45,516 bases of DNA from an uncultured Saprospiraceae bacterium (GTDB lineage Bacteria; Bacteroidota; Bacteroidia; Chitinophagales; Saprospiraceae). The notes beneath the pieces are model-generated. The model searched no databases. It saw nothing but the letters and a program-made list of their open reading frames with translations, and had not been told where the DNA came from. Within the stretch, counting starts at the first letter, position 1, and every line of letters begins with the position of its first letter. This document shows, one piece after another, positions 19,653 to 35,327 of this stretch. Made by a program: the position numbers and the translations under genes. Location: NCBI GenBank assembly GCA_937929835.1, contig CALFUU010000087.1, forward strand, positions 1 through 45,516, read 5' to 3'.

Positions 19653-19952
19653 CTACCGCTTAGAAATTTTATTCATTGAAATATGCTTTTGACGAGAGCA
19701 TCTAAATCTATCTATCTCGGGGTTGCGCTTTTTAAGATGCTTTTGGCTGACACCGCTGTGTACTCTTTTCCTCCATAGCTTAAAGCTAGACGACTTGAGT
19801 GTCCGCCTCATAAGCTTAATGACTTGGCTTTCACTTAAACCAAATTGGAGCTTTATCGCTTCGAAAGGCGTTCTATCTTCCCACGCCATTCCTATAATCC
19901 TGTCCAAATCTCTATCTGTGAGGTCTTCATACATACCTCCGTTTAACATCAT
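19653..19952 (-). CDS. TIGR03643 family protein (helix-turn-helix-like)
   Basis: The core LTDRDLDRIIGMAWEDRTPF...AIKLQFGLSESQVIKLMRRTL...SSFKLWRKRV...DRFRCSRQKHI matches the TIGR03643 pattern closely. FGLSESQVIKLMR looks like a helix-turn-helix, so nucleic acid binding is plausible. I take the ATG at 19952; an internal ATG at 19934 also fits, and the longer frame to 20003 would need a TTG and adds residues with no family resemblance. The C-terminus is basic (ISMNKISKR). It precedes the DUF2256 gene by 28 bp, a pairing seen widely, usually with a photolyase-like gene. Confidence 0.85.
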   Translation of the reverse strand: MMLNGGMYEDLTDRDLDRIIGMAWEDRTPFEAIKLQFGLSESQVIKLMRRTLKSSSFKLWRKRVHSGVSQKHLKKRNPEIDRFRCSRQKHISMNKISKR

Positions 19953-26610: not shown

Positions 26611-28251
26611 TTATCTCTTAGTAGAGGTATCATTTACAATAACTCTCTTAGTAGTACTAGCACAAACTTGTACTCTTCTGTTCAACTCTCTACCTTCCTT
26701 AGTTAAGTTATCTGCTACTGGATTCGTCTCACCATATCCTTCGTGTGTGATTCTATCCATACTGATACCAGCTGCAACTAAGCTATCTGCTACCTTCTTA
26801 GCTCTTCTCTTAGACAATCTAAGGTTAGCAGCTTCAGCTCCTTGGCTATCTGTGTAACCTGATACATTGAAGAATGCCTCTGGGTACTGTCTAGCAAATG
26901 CTGCTATATCTGAGATCGACTGGTCGTAAGACTCAGACTGAGATGATCCTGAACCAAAGCTAATTGGTGCAGCACAATATCTATTAATAGTCTCAGCTCT
27001 TGTAGGCTTTCTGACTGCTGGGCAACCATCCTTTTCTGGAACACCTGCCTCTGTAGGACACTTATCATCCTTATCTGCAATACCGTCACCGTCACTATCA
27101 GGGCAACCCATAACTGTACCAGCAACATCTGGACAAGCATCATCCTTATCGATAACACCATCACCATCTGTATCTGGGCAACCTCCTACAGTACCTGGAG
27201 TGTTAGGGCAAGGATCGTTATCATCGTCAAATCCGTCACCATCAGAATCTGGAATAGGGCATCCGTCATACTTACTGACACCTGACTCTTGTGGACACTT
27301 ATCTACGTTATCACCGATACCGTCACCATCAGAATCTGGGCATCCATTGTATCTAGCTTCTCCAGCTACCTCAGGACAAGCATCTTCTTTATCAATGATC
27401 TTGTCACCGTCAGAATCTGGACAACCGTTGAACTCTGCTGTACCTGCAACCTGAGGACAAGCATCATCTTTATCTATAATTGTATCTCCATCAGAATCTG
27501 GACATCCAGCATATTCCTTAAGACCTGGCGTATCAGGGCAAGCATCTTTCTTATCTGCTACTCCATCACCATCTGCATCTTGCTTTCCTAGAGAAAAAGC
27601 CAAACCTAACTCGTGTAATAGATAGTTATCATTGCCATCTGTCACCTCGTTAGCTGGGAAGTTACCATTTGCTACATTAGGAGAATCTTCATAAATACCA
27701 TCATACTGATCATCGAATCCGATTCCGTATTGTGAATGCCAGAATAAACCGAAGTTATCTGTGAAGTTATATCTCAAACCGAGACCTAATGGTATGTGGA
27801 GACCCGAAGCATCTTCACCTCTTGCATCATTAGTACCAGGTTGTGTTCCGTCACCTAAGACATTGCTATAATTGATGAAACCTATTGCTCCTGAGAGGAA
27901 TGGATTAAACTTCTCACCCTTAAGAAACTTCCAGTGTAAGCCTAAGTTAGCTTGGAACACATCAGATAGAAACTCGTGAAATTGTGTGTTGTCTACGGTT
28001 TCATCTATACCGTGTCTTCCTGAGGATCCCGCAAGAAATACATCAAAAGATGGAGAGAGATAATACCCTAATCTACCACCTACGTGACCTTGGAAAGGTG
28101 TACCAAATAGGAGGTTAGATCCTATATCACCGCTATACTCCATTTTACCCCCACTAATCATAATACCAAACTTGCTATCCGCAGTCTGCGAAGTCATAGT
28201 GAAACTAAATGCAAGCATCAGCATCATAAATGAGAACAATTGCTTTTTCAT
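26611..28251 (-). CDS. OmpA family protein with thrombospondin type 3 repeats
   Basis: The 546-aa protein has a signal peptide (1-21), an N-terminal eight-stranded-type barrel (about 25-225), and then an array of thrombospondin type 3 calcium-binding repeats (about 226-410) with units such as DSDGDGIGDNVDKCP and DTDGDGVIDKDDACP, each ending in a Cys-Pro and a GCPD. The C-terminal OmpA domain (about 430-535) carries GYTDSQGAEAANLRLSKRRA and MDRITHEGYGETNPV, which bind peptidoglycan. It should tether the outer membrane to the wall. Codon use is highly regular, which suggests strong expression as a major envelope protein. Its transcript ends at a strong terminator, and the 325-bp upstream region should hold a long leader or regulated promoter. 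Confidence 0.95.
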   Translation of the reverse strand: MKKQLFSFMMLMLAFSFTMTSQTADSKFGIMISGGKMEYSGDIGSNLLFGTPFQGHVGGRLGYYLSPSFDVFLAGSSGRHGIDETVDNTQFHEFLSDVFQANLGLHWKFLKGEKFNPFLSGAIGFINYSNVLGDGTQPGTNDARGEDASGLHIPLGLGLRYNFTDNFGLFWHSQYGIGFDDQYDGIYEDSPNVANGNFPANEVTDGNDNYLLHELGLAFSLGKQDADGDGVADKKDACPDTPGLKEYAGCPDSDGDTIIDKDDACPQVAGTAEFNGCPDSDGDKIIDKEDACPEVAGEARYNGCPDSDGDGIGDNVDKCPQESGVSKYDGCPIPDSDGDGFDDDNDPCPNTPGTVGGCPDTDGDGVIDKDDACPDVAGTVMGCPDSDGDGIADKDDKCPTEAGVPEKDGCPAVRKPTRAETINRYCAAPISFGSGSSQSESYDQSISDIAAFARQYPEAFFNVSGYTDSQGAEAANLRLSKRRAKKVADSLVAAGISMDRITHEGYGETNPVADNLTKEGRELNRRVQVCASTTKRVIVNDTSTKR

Positions 28252-32541: not shown

Positions 32542-33138
32542 TTATAAATGATTAAATGAATCCTTGGATCTGAATCCCAAGCGCTCCATATTATCTCTAA
32601 AATAATTATCTACATACGCTGACTTAAGGCTAATGATATTATCCAGTTCTATTAACTCAGCGACGTTATCCTCCGTATTATAGATCGCCATTGTTGCCAG
32701 ACCTGTTTTCTGAGCACATAACTCTCCAGGGTTAACGACGATACACTCTCCTATTTTATCTTCACTTACCTTATGATTATGTCCAAAGAACACCGCATCA
32801 AACCGACCCGACTCAGCCATCGGCATCGCTAAGTCATCATAGTGAGAGATAAATAATTTTCTTCCATCCAATTCTAGAAAATCGTACGTATTAAGACTGA
32901 CCGTGAGTTGGCTACCCTCTCTGTAGGAGGCCTTGACGATATCGACTTTCTCCCCATCATTATTCCCCCATATCATATAAGTTGGTATATGATGATGAAC
33001 CAAAATTTTTGCGATACCTGCATTCATCAGATCACCTAGACAGATTATTTGCTGTACTCCACGCTTTTCCATTTCTTCCAAAGACCTGATGAGGTTATGA
33101 AAGTTTTCATGGATGTCCGATATGATGGCTATTCTCAT
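32542..33138 (-). CDS. YfcE/MJ0936-type metallophosphoesterase
   Basis: The 198-aa calcineurin-like phosphoesterase carries the dimetal site complete: SDIHEN (Asp8, His10), LGDLMNAG (Asp36), GNNDG (Asn60-Asp61), His99 in ISHYDD, and GHNH (119-122). This is the YfcE/MJ0936 layout. These enzymes hydrolyse phosphodiesters such as bis-pNPP in vitro; physiological substrates are uncertain. It is cytoplasmic. It is the first gene of a tight group with the P-loop protein (2 bp away) and gabD. Upstream lies the heptamer repeat array, which separates it from the TPP enzyme gene. Confidence 0.9.
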   Translation of the reverse strand: MRIAIISDIHENFHNLIRSLEEMEKRGVQQIICLGDLMNAGIAKILVHHHIPTYMIWGNNDGEKVDIVKASYREGSQLTVSLNTYDFLELDGRKLFISHYDDLAMPMAESGRFDAVFFGHNHKVSEDKIGECIVVNPGELCAQKTGLATMAIYNTEDNVAELIELDNIISLKSAYVDNYFRDNMERLGFRSKDSFNHL

Positions 33139-33209
33139 TTAAGAAAAAAATATTTTATATTTTGTTTGTAAAGTCTATTGTTATCCTCTGGCGATGCATT
33201 CTTCCTCTT

Positions 33210-33705
33210 CTACCCTCTAACTTTTTTTTACTCGTCTCTAAAAAACTATGAATTCAGAACTAAAAAGCTTTACACTAAAAAAACTATGCACTCTACCCCC
33301 TGCTACCCTCTAACTCCCTAAAGTGAGAACCCCAATCAGCACTAATATCTGCTATCTACTACTTTTTTACTCGTCTCCAAAAAACTATGAACTCTGAACT
33401 CTGAACTATGCACTAAAATCTATTCTCTTTTATCTATGCTCTATTATCTAAAAACTATGAACTATGCACTAAAAAACTATGCACTCTATCCCCCTGCTAC
33501 CCTCTAACTCCCTAAAAGGAGAACCGCAATCAACACTATTATCTGTTATATGCTATTCTTTTACTCGTCTCAAAAAACTATGCACTCTGAACTATGCACT
33601 ATGCACTATTTTCTATTATCTAAAATCTATGCTCTATTATCTAAAAAACTATGCACTCTGAACTATGAACTATGCACTAAAAACCTCTGCACTAAAAAAA
33701 ACTAT
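33210..33705. repeat. Degenerate 7-bp tandem repeat array with three longer units
   Basis: The 563-bp gap between the TPP enzyme and YfcE-like genes is filled by variants of the heptamer TATGCAC: TATGAAC, TCTGAAC, TATTATC, TATGCTC and TAAAATC, many in register every 7 bp (on the minus strand, G followed by NNNATA-like units). These sit inside a higher-order repeat of about 195 bp. Two near-complete copies lie at about 33294-33485 and 33486-33684, both opening with CCCCCTGCTACCCTCTAACT and carrying ACTCGTCTC. A shorter third copy lies at about 33210-33293. The array runs into the TAG stop of the TPP enzyme gene at 33702. It is not a CRISPR array: there are no conserved 25-40 bp repeats with unique spacers. 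Function is unknown. Confidence 0.85.
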
Positions 33706-35327
33706 CGCACCTTCGGCAACGCCTTAAACTTGTTCGTACTTGGCCAATCATTACCGACTGGAATTTCTATGACTGTAGGTAAGTCTCTGCCCTTGGCTGC
33801 GCGAATTTCATTTCGCAATTCATCCATACTATTGGCTTGGACTCCGTGGGCACCAAACGACTGCGCCATCTTGACAAAATCTGGATTATGAAGATCTGTA
33901 GCAATCACACGATTGTCATACAGTTGTTCCTGCATCGACCGTACATTACCAAAAAGATTATTATTGAAAAGGAGTACGATAACGCCTAATTTATGCTGCA
34001 CAGCAGTCGCTAATTCTTGAACACCAAACATAAAGCCTCCGTCCCCTGCCAAAGACACAACCATAGCATCAGGTCTCGCTGCCTTAGCGCCGAGCGCAGT
34101 CTGAAAACCCCAACCCAAGGTACCCATATGTCCTGTACAGAGATACGTCCGAGGAAGATCTGTGTCCCAGACTATTCTACTCGCAAAGCCCACTTGTGTC
34201 AACTCGTCTACCAAAATGCCATCCTCTGGCAACTCCTCCCTGATGAGCTTAAGATAAGATTTTTGAGGCTCGAGGTAGGCCGTCTCCTTATCCCACGCTG
34301 CGGCAAACTTTTCCATTTCTGCTTTTCTACTGACACGTGGTTTGGCATTTGCCGTTAGAGCTGCATTGAGTTGGGCAACGACTTGCTTAGAATCACCAGT
34401 AAGGGCGACATCAGCTTTACGCATTCTGTTGTGTGCTTCCTCATCAATATTGATAGAGAGGAATTTTAGTTTATCATCTTGGCCCCACTTCATTAATGGC
34501 ATCCTGGCGTGAGAACCTATGGCAATGCAGAGATCACAATCAGCCCAAAGACTATGTGCCGCTGGAACAGGATAACTGAGATAATGTGAACTGGCAACGA
34601 TGCCCTTTCCTGTTCTGTATGAGAAGACAGGCGCTTGTAGGTACTCCACAAATTGTGTCACCTCAACAGAAGCGTGCATAGCCCCACCAGCAACAAAAAC
34701 AAGAGGATTTTTTGCTTGCGCAATTAACTCAATTGCCACAGAAATTTCTGTATCCGTAACAGATGGAATATGTGGAATGATATCAAACTTCTCGAAACTT
34801 ATTTCTTCAGTTCCAGACAATACATCCATAGGAATCTCGACACCTACAGGTCTTGGTCTATCAGAGTGCATCTGCTCGAAAGCTTCTGCGATGACCATCG
34901 GGGCAGCATTGGGTGAATCCACTTTGGCTGCCCACTTAGTTAAGCGCTGCATTATGCCCATCTGATCTGGAATCTCATGCAAGACACCTAGGTTCTTACC
35001 CTGCACTTTCTTGGGTATCTGACCGACGAGACAGAGTACTTTTGCATTGAGTCCCCATATCGTTGATAGCGCACCACAACTGTTGAGAAAACCAGGACCA
35101 GGTACGATGTTATAGACCGCTTGCTCACCCGTCGCTAAGTAATGTCCTAGCGCCATATAACCTGCACCCTGCTCGTGACGTGTATGGAGGACTTTGATTT
35201 CATCTCGATAATCATATAGGGCATTGTAGAGCCAGTCATTTTGCACACCTGGCAAACCATAAATCTGCTTCACGCCTGCCTTTATCAATGACCGCACGGC
35301 AGCCTGTCCTCCTGTCAGTTCTTTCAA
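33702..35327 (-). CDS. Thiamine pyrophosphate enzyme of the acetolactate synthase/2-oxoacid decarboxylase family
   Basis: The 541-aa protein has the three-domain TPP layout. The N-terminal pyrimidine-binding domain has TRHEQGAGYMA with the catalytic Glu52 and NIVPGPGFLNS. The central domain has PLVFVAGGAMHAS. The C-terminal diphosphate-binding domain has AGDGGFMFGVQELATAV (GDG 428-430) and FNNNLFGN (NNN 455-457). It is close to acetolactate synthase large subunits, but no small regulatory subunit is adjacent, so a decarboxylase or ligase acting on a 2-oxoacid is more likely. Next to an aminotransferase and phenylalanine hydroxylase, an aromatic 2-oxoacid is a candidate substrate (inference). 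The start is TTG; no in-frame ATG lies nearby. It follows the aminotransferase gene by 24 bp. Confidence 0.85.
   Translation of the reverse strand: MKELTGGQAAVRSLIKAGVKQIYGLPGVQNDWLYNALYDYRDEIKVLHTRHEQGAGYMALGHYLATGEQAVYNIVPGPGFLNSCGALSTIWGLNAKVLCLVGQIPKKVQGKNLGVLHEIPDQMGIMQRLTKWAAKVDSPNAAPMVIAEAFEQMHSDRPRPVGVEIPMDVLSGTEEISFEKFDIIPHIPSVTDTEISVAIELIAQAKNPLVFVAGGAMHASVEVTQFVEYLQAPVFSYRTGKGIVASSHYLSYPVPAAHSLWADCDLCIAIGSHARMPLMKWGQDDKLKFLSINIDEEAHNRMRKADVALTGDSKQVVAQLNAALTANAKPRVSRKAEMEKFAAAWDKETAYLEPQKSYLKLIREELPEDGILVDELTQVGFASRIVWDTDLPRTYLCTGHMGTLGWGFQTALGAKAARPDAMVVSLAGDGGFMFGVQELATAVQHKLGVIVLLFNNNLFGNVRSMQEQLYDNRVIATDLHNPDFVKMAQSFGAHGVQANSMDELRNEIRAAKGRDLPTVIEIPVGNDWPSTNKFKALPKVR

Follow-up and report, generated by a model that had tools for sequence, protein, structure and literature searches.

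A nested intergenic heptamer array in an uncultured Saprospiraceae bacterium belongs to a dispersed repeat family with a possible link to S23 genes

Results

A nested heptamer array follows a TPP enzyme gene

In the window, which is the whole 45,516-nt stretch of DNA from an uncultured Saprospiraceae bacterium analysed here, a degenerate heptamer array lies on the minus strand at positions 33205 to 33704. Upstream of the array is a gene for a TPP-dependent enzyme (33702 to 35327, minus strand; Pfam TPP_enzyme_N, M and C), and downstream is a gene for a calcineurin-like phosphoesterase (32542 to 33138, minus strand; Pfam Metallophos_2). With protein genes on both sides, the array is not an insertion in 23S rRNA. 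The TAG stop codon of the TPP enzyme gene (33702 to 33704, minus strand) doubles as the first TAG of the array on the gene strand, so the array does run into the stop codon, as the original prediction had stated. Read on the gene strand, the heptamers are TAGTGCA, TAGTTCA, GAGTTCA and TAGATAA, for which the unit is best written TAGNNNN, and all 17 exact copies of the core heptamer [TG]AGT[GT]CA in the array are on the minus strand. The identity at lag 7 was 0.501 in the array compared to 0.291 ± 0.022 in 1000 dinucleotide-preserving shuffles, none of which reached 0.501; the identities at lags 14 and 21 were also raised (0 of 1000 shuffles as high in each case), and that at lag 28 was raised weakly (39 of 1000). 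These results show that the 7-bp register is real. A scan of lag-7 identity in 451 intervals of 500 bp had its maximum at 33201 (0.499), and the best interval that does not overlap the array, at 19901, reached 0.331. At 27322 to 27508, within the called ORF 26611-28251, an 81-bp unit is present in 2.3 copies.

The heptamers are nested in a longer repeat. Two copies of a unit of about 195 bp and a partial third had been predicted, and TRF reported a unit of 194 bp in 2.1 copies with 86% matches at 33273 to 33678; a gapless repeat search placed the partial third, at 33209 to 33283, in two additional incomplete copies (33209-33261 and 33244-33283). The array also contains, at 33497 to 33527 on the minus strand, a 31-nt word with a short hairpin (GCGGTTCTCC..GGGAGTTAGAGGGTAG) that is common to other arrays in the window's genome (G000) and in a relative from the same genus (G011), and a second copy of this word lies at 33303 to 33333 on the same strand. 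We filed the window array as an STRR-type heptamer array of unusual nested build, and not as STRR proper, because its words appear to differ from the described words of cyanobacterial STRR and its host has a gene content that suggests Bacteroidota.

The array is a member of a dispersed, strand-pure family

The assembly of G000 is 3.49 Mb in 193 contigs and is 90.1% complete. A 16-mer pattern, ACTNTGNACTNTGNAC, had 96 exact matches in G000, while its reversed control had none, and a DNA search of G000 with the array gave 81 matches at E up to 1, the array itself included. Reading 28 stretches together with the window yielded 27 arrays, where an array was counted only if it held at least 4 core heptamers. 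All 27 are strand-pure, with no core heptamer on the opposite strand inside any of them; 25 lie entirely outside ORFs of at least 100 aa, and the other two each reach into the end of such an ORF, one by 3 bp and one by 14 bp. Among arrays with a gene called on the relevant side, the 5′ gene shares the strand of the array in 19 of 24 and the 3′ gene in 12 of 23, and in 17 of the 19 same-strand cases the first core heptamer starts between −3 and +95 bp from the end of the stop codon. TAG is in slight excess among the preceding stop codons in G000 (9 of 18 vs 41 of 107) and in higher excess in G011 (8 of 11 vs 13 of 42). The 45 genes that flank G000 arrays are diverse, with 105 Pfam families, none of which occurs in more than two genes. 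Since arrays are enriched near contig ends (9 of 26 lie within 1 kb of one, with 11% expected), the family is probably undercounted in G000. At L212 (1676-1787; contig C51 of G000), a near-perfect run of 16 heptamers directly follows a stop codon and is apparently a recent expansion.

The predicted family of intergenic elements is thus supported by the recurrence of the array words in 27 arrays, by the 16-mer count (96 vs 0) and by composite units that differ by locus and species; the elements may be mobile. The likeness in style to STRR also stands for the tandem 7-bp units, the intergenic position and the dispersal (z 9.7 for lag 7; 96 vs 0 for the 16-mer) but does not extend to the words.

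The arrays are built from a small shared lexicon. Their common words are TAGTGCA-type and TAGATAA-type heptamers, the 31-nt hairpin word (17 copies across the loci searched in G000 and G011), an octamer series, AATCCTNN, and an end like that of an insertion sequence; the composite unit varies by locus, from 194 bp in the window array to about 60 bp in L209. Satellite-like composite repeats are thus present in a bacterium and draw on a small common stock of words. In L206, L214, L222 and L228, TGTCCGTCCCTGATATAGGTTGACC or near variants of it adjoin arrays or repeat inside them, and by eye this sequence is probably an insertion-sequence end. The idea that the arrays are stop cassettes, in which TAGNNNN stops every frame of the gene strand, was also considered; it was rejected as a general explanation because the CAGGTTT and CAGGTGT words of G014, G035 and G043, read by eye, contain no sense stop.

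The same gap carries different arrays in related species

Among 13 relatives, the 16-mer had 43 matches in G011, one in G004 and none in the other 11. The gap that follows the TPP enzyme gene is 432 bp in G011 compared to 566 bp in G000 and holds the same words in other spacings, although DNA identity between the genes on either side is 83-85%. Because this orthologous gap, next to a TPP gene of 85% DNA identity, carries the same words, the array is not an artefact of one assembly. Other species of the genus have other short-unit arrays or none in this gap: TAGATAA-type words and a 9-mer array that reaches the contig end in G002, an 8-mer array in G006, and an S23 gene between 8-mer arrays of opposite orientation in G012. 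The gap is short in G004 and G005, is about 166 bp without a clear array in G013, ends at another ORF in G001, G003 and G008, and is cut in G010; no match to the TPP gene was found in G007 or G009. Unit length at this one gap changes between related species.

A structured 3′ end is not supported for the window array

The original prediction had listed a structured 3′ end among the possible roles of the array. The predicted RNA fold of the 500 nt of the array was no better than that of shuffled sequence (z −0.20 for the sense strand and −0.02 for the antisense strand). When 150-nt parts were folded, the part next to the stop codon had a z of −1.41, with 16 of 200 shuffles as good, and the other part had a z of 0.24. 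The array contains no intrinsic terminator, and a search of seven loci against Rfam gave no match within the arrays; two CsrC matches outside the array were far below the gathering score. In addition, the inverted pair of a short repeat that defines a REPIN was found neither at the window array nor at any of the 27 G000 arrays within 600 bp. With a sense z of −0.20, no terminator and no inverted arm, the window array gives no support to a structured 3′ end.

Arrays of some relatives are often paired and point inward

In several relatives an array can be followed, with no S23 gene involved, by an inverted partner. An inverted arm lay within 150 bp downstream of 8 of the 14 G035 arrays, 5 of the 16 in G043, 2 of 4 in G104 and 6 of 7 at five named loci, compared to 1 of 17 in G014, 1 of 12 in G011 and none of the 27 in G000, where counts are per array (so that L071, L105 and L477 can count twice) and thresholds differ by group. 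Upstream, an inverted arm was found for 1 of 97 arrays. This downstream bias indicates that the arms point inward. Paired elements can fold strongly, as in the isolate Neolewinella lacunae (z −7.86) and in G035 (z −4.00). At most, the window array would be a derivative with one arm.

The orientation of the arrays relative to genes was also compared across word families. In G014, G035, G043 and G104, the 5′ gene is on the array strand in 26 of 42 cases (p 0.16), a weak preference that counts against the reading preferred below. When G000 and these four genomes were pooled, for arrays with a gene on each side, outside called ORFs and with no inverted partner of the core motif, and with G011 omitted, array and genes agreed in tandem gaps 18:6 (p 0.023), the array was nearer the stop codon of the sense gene in 14 of 17 convergent gaps (p 0.013), and convergent gaps outnumbered divergent gaps 17:7 (p 0.064). 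These results make the strand rule firm for the family of the window array and moderate in the other word families.

S23 genes are frequently flanked by inverted arrays

Matches to PF05635 (S23, a four-helix bundle) were found in 11 of 14 genomes of the genus (E up to 1e-4) and in 62 of 80 genomes of the family (E up to 1e-10). The flanks of the S23 genes are frequently short-period arrays, and the downstream flank is frequently the reverse complement of the upstream flank. This was quantified by the local alignment score of 200-bp flanks, with a threshold set either at the 95% level of cross-locus pairs or at a fixed score of 30. Of 59 S23 loci, including 30 family loci taken as the best-scoring S23 match in each of 30 genomes from a longer list, 52 were placed, and in 49 neither flank was shorter than 80 bases; 11 of the placed S23 ORFs lack an S23-like motif, and some are probably misplaced. 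Inverted flanks exceeded the 95% level at 13 of the 24 loci from the genus and at 17 of the 25 from the family, compared to 5 of 66 control genes; for direct similarity, the counts were 4 of 24, 8 of 25 and 3 of 66. With the fixed threshold, an inverted score of at least 30 was reached at 30 of the 49 S23 loci, compared to 6 of 672 other genes, whose flanks are frequently coding, and 1 of the 66 control genes. Among other genes with gaps of at least 60 bp on both sides the count was 6 of 304, and among genes of 90-160 aa in S23-rich genomes it was 0 of 57. Direct scores of at least 30 were found at 12 of the 49 S23 loci and at 8 of the 672 other genes. The best flank period in the 30 passing loci was 7 in 15, 8 or 9 in 7, and weak in 8. 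At L545 (3169-5823; G031), a gene of 884 aa has inverted flanks (score 57) with 8-mer arrays near both sides, and because of this gene the inverted arms are not exclusive to S23.

A tblastn search of plasmids with the S23 protein of G000 returned 26 records, 14 of them from Nostoc, Dolichospermum, Aulosira or Anabaena. Twenty-two were analysed (H6, H21, H22 and H23 were left out), and since several are close kin, namely two Planktothrix and groups of Nostoc, they are not independent. An inverted score of at least 30 was reached at 19 of the 22 loci and a direct score at 6, compared to 22 of 402 cross-locus pairs, and period 7 was clear (window identity of at least 0.55) at 16 of the 19 passing loci. 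The clearest cases are from cyanobacteria and Bernardetia, and most of the S23 flanks read on cyanobacterial plasmids are STRR-style heptamer arrays. Treponema and one of two Chlorohelix loci pass the inverted test but are also directly similar, the second Chlorohelix locus falls below the inverted-flank threshold, and Monoglobus lies above it with a score of 38. Scores below 30 in the inverted test were found at 3 of the 22 plasmid loci and at 19 of the 49 family S23 loci. The direct similarity of S23 flanks (12 of 49 and 6 of 22, compared to 8 of 672) indicates that array-rich surroundings explain part of the signal. Some plasmid S23 genes or matches lie among defence genes (L559, L562, L565, L571 and L572), at sites between cas2 and cas1, beside cas1, between DISARM drmD and MmeI, and between the restriction subunit genes hsdS and hsdR.

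One S23 match was found in G000, and it adjoins TAGTGCA and TAGATAA words; on the far side of the gene, TAGATAA-type words are inverted and TAGTGCA is not, as read by eye. This gene follows a protein gene (L208, L333) and is not in 23S rRNA. After that protein gene, repeats and then an S23 gene are found in G000, G011, G009 and G004, while in G007, G003 and G008 the next gene follows after 15-36 bp. The other 26 of the 27 G000 arrays lie away from this one S23 gene. The idea that every array has an S23 gene was rejected, with one S23 match for 27 arrays in G000.

Words beside S23 genes are also dispersed within several genomes

We compared the words in S23 flanks with those dispersed in the same genomes. 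A 90-base array from an S23 flank of G104 matched the same genome at 16 other places with E<0.01, which lie on 9 contigs and in part share one array, and at one more with 0.05; in 11 other genomes it gave 4 matches in 3 genomes, all at E of 0.02 or more. The pattern CANGTNTCA, which had served as the reversed control of the 16-mer, was abundant in three genomes (170, 55 and 26 matches). Among the 27 genomes with an S23 locus read, an S23 flank with at least two CANGTNTCA words went with at least 26 matches in the genome in 3 of 3 cases, compared to 0 of 24, an association spotted post hoc. Four genomes thus carry copies of their S23-flank word at scattered sites as well. With the pattern of the window array itself (Fisher p 0.025), G000 and G011 follow this correspondence. 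There are two exceptions: G004 has a TAGTGCA word beside its S23 gene and a single 16-mer match, and G016 has 17 matches of the window pattern with no such word beside the S23 gene read.

Short-period arrays were also compared between genomes with and without S23 genes, using 10 of 18 S23-null genomes and 10 of 18 genomes with at least 5 S23 matches, a contrast made with no correction for phylogeny or genome size. With a TRF score of at least 40, intergenic arrays of period 6-9 numbered 41 in 491,252 bp from S23-rich genomes and 0 in 482,188 bp from S23-null genomes, in a sample in which some stretches were clipped by contig ends, two did not exist and four genomes gave less than 10 kb. At least one such array was present in 8 of the 10 S23-rich genomes. 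When ORFs were included, the period 6-9 counts were 51 vs 4 at score 40 and 155 vs 94 at score 30. G104 has 10 S23 matches yet no array in the 40 kb read. In G010, in which no S23 gene was found, a short-unit array (TTATCC..) lies downstream of a ComM gene (L321).

Taken together, the dispersal of the arrays, their strand purity and their position after stop codons, the inverted S23 flanks, the agreement in several genomes between S23-flank words and dispersed words, and the contrast between S23-rich and S23-null genomes are shown in the samples read. The associations between S23 genes and arrays are strong there; a spread of the words driven by S23 would be a bold further step. The window array itself is tied to S23 by shared words only.

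Discussion

Our preferred reading, to which we give a probability of roughly 55%, is that the window array is a copy of a lineage-specific, dispersed STRR-type family whose words are spread by S23-linked, REPIN-like cassettes. Judging from the form of the arrays, the heptamers would expand locally by slippage, and the composite units would grow and be homogenised by tandem duplication or unequal recombination. The arrays would be tolerated, and possibly favoured, directly downstream of stop codons and in the orientation of the gene that ends there. In many relatives, S23 genes lie between two arrays that point towards each other, and such arm-S23-arm cassettes, together with arm-arm derivatives that lack S23, may carry the words around the genome in the way proposed for REPINs and RAYT genes with REPs. 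The single-arm arrays of G000 would be expanded remnants of cassettes. On this inferred account, the driver of the spread would be S23 or its RNA, and the events would have followed this order.

A broader proposal is possible but tentative. S23/IVP four-helix-bundle genes may supply the gene of a REPIN-like system in which the repeat consists of two short, mostly 7-bp tandem arrays in inverted orientation; such a system would be the source of STRR-type intergenic heptamers, and the intervening sequences (IVS) of 23S rRNA would be copies that landed in rRNA. It would be present in Bacteroidota and Cyanobacteriota, where the cases are clear, and perhaps in Spirochaetota, Bacillota and Chloroflexota, where the loci are few and weaker. 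S23 would bind the array RNA or DNA or help to copy it. In the parts of the literature consulted, the origin and use of STRR-type heptamers and the role of S23 are both unexplained, so that the link, if true, would merge two orphan problems into one testable problem.

Plain slippage would let heptamers arise and expand independently in each gap, with no mobile element and with S23 merely sharing permissive gaps. It accounts for the different units at the same gap in different species and for the recent look of the near-perfect 16-heptamer run at L212, and heptamers are over-represented among bacterial simple repeats, for which polymerase slippage has been proposed in the available text of two papers (PMC4679880, PMC4692102). 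We nevertheless regard it as somewhat unlikely, since words that are not heptamers, such as the 31-nt hairpin word and others, recur in unrelated gaps of one genome, and since slippage in a shared gap does not predict the excess of inverted over direct similarity in S23 flanks (30 vs 12 of 49, and 19 vs 6 of 22). That the arrays begin just after stop codons on the sense strand would also suit a 3′-end RNA element of the upstream mRNA, whether a terminator, a stability hairpin or a processing site; the paired arms of relatives can form strong hairpins (z −7.86 in N. lacunae and −4.00 in G035), and STRR hairpins are suggested, in the portion of the source seen, to raise transcript stability (PMC2670836). 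The window array speaks against such an element with its sense fold (z −0.20) and its lack of a terminator and of an inverted arm, as does the Rfam search without a match in the arrays of seven loci, which makes this explanation unlikely.

The apparent insertion-sequence ends beside or inside the arrays of L206, L214, L222 and L228, together with the similar layout of the REPIN/RAYT system as far as the source was available (PMC3116915), are consistent with the mobilisation of a MITE or IS-derived family by a transposase of DDE or HuH (RAYT) type. This origin is quite unlikely: among the 25 listed of the 105 Pfam families in the 45 array-flanking genes there is no transposase, and the arrays vary in length and unit, unlike MITEs of fixed length. 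The regular 7-bp register could instead mark a binding array for a nucleoid protein or for an RNA-binding protein (Csp, S1 or Csr), as is proposed for the TAACTGA repeats of Beggiatoaceae in the excerpts seen (PMC4679880), but the unit at the same gap changes between species of one genus, and the arrays here mostly follow stop codons, whereas most Beggiatoaceae repeats lie just upstream of start codons, so that we hold this to be very unlikely. An assembly artefact, to which the closeness of 9 of 26 arrays to a contig end (1 kb or less, where 11% would be expected) might point, is hardly credible, given the same words in the G011 gap, the continuation of the window contig on both sides of the array and the similar elements in the isolate N. 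lacunae.

Comparison with known systems

The following comparisons refer to the parts of the cited papers that were available. The original prediction knew of no described element with this unit; the unit was indeed not met in the literature consulted, but intergenic heptamer arrays are a described kind, and what is new here as a lead is their association with S23. Cyanobacterial STRR (PMC2670836) resemble the window family in their tandem 7-bp units, in their hairpins in places and in their unexplained function, and differ from it in their words; in the window family, the units are composite and nested and mostly follow stop codons on the sense strand. The GGGAATC heptamers of Xanthomonas and the GGGGA(C/T)T heptamers of Nostoc PCC 7120 (PMC4692102) are likewise intergenic and vary in length between species at the same genes, but they are G-rich and form quadruplexes. 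In Xanthomonas, there are 70 and 75 cases of two heptamer sites in convergent orientation, and a class of them is nearer the 5′ ORF (28 vs 160 nt on average); the Xanthomonas heptamers are described as having no strand preference and as generally not occurring with mobile elements, and those of Nostoc PCC 7120 as seldom forming pairs and as lying more frequently on the opposite strand (PMC4692102). These reports on strand, pairing and mobile elements count against the S23-linked reading. The TAACTGA repeats that occur in marine Beggiatoaceae, in some cyanobacteria and in five Bacteroidetes (PMC4679880) are also dispersed intergenic direct repeats of a heptamer, with a different unit. The tandem repeats of Borgs (PMC9879509) are similarly fast-evolving, independently formed and intergenic, but they have perfect units, belong to archaeal extrachromosomal elements and lie in ORFs in about half of the cases.

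In the open-licence literature as far as it was available, no link between S23 or four-helix-bundle genes and dispersed heptamer arrays was found, and the nearest case is the IVS of Coxiella (PMC4990558), which has tandem heptamers in strain-variable number just upstream of the S23p start, inside terminal inverted repeats. Like the S23 cassettes, 23S rRNA IVS with an S23p ORF place the S23 ORF between terminal inverted repeats; unlike them, they lie in 23S rRNA and have stem arms of 28 bp, with no dispersed array family described in the available text (PMC4990558). According to the same source, a structure of S23p is available from Xanthomonas campestris, and the S23 protein of Coxiella is probably not made, which counts against a reading in which S23 drives the spread. 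The putative S23 system differs from REPIN/RAYT (PMC3116915) in that its arms are tandem arrays and not palindromic REPs and in that its gene encodes S23 and not a Y1 transposase. In layout, the two resemble each other: both have inverted pairs of a genome-specific repeat and a gene with that repeat on either side, and single repeats are interpreted as remnants.
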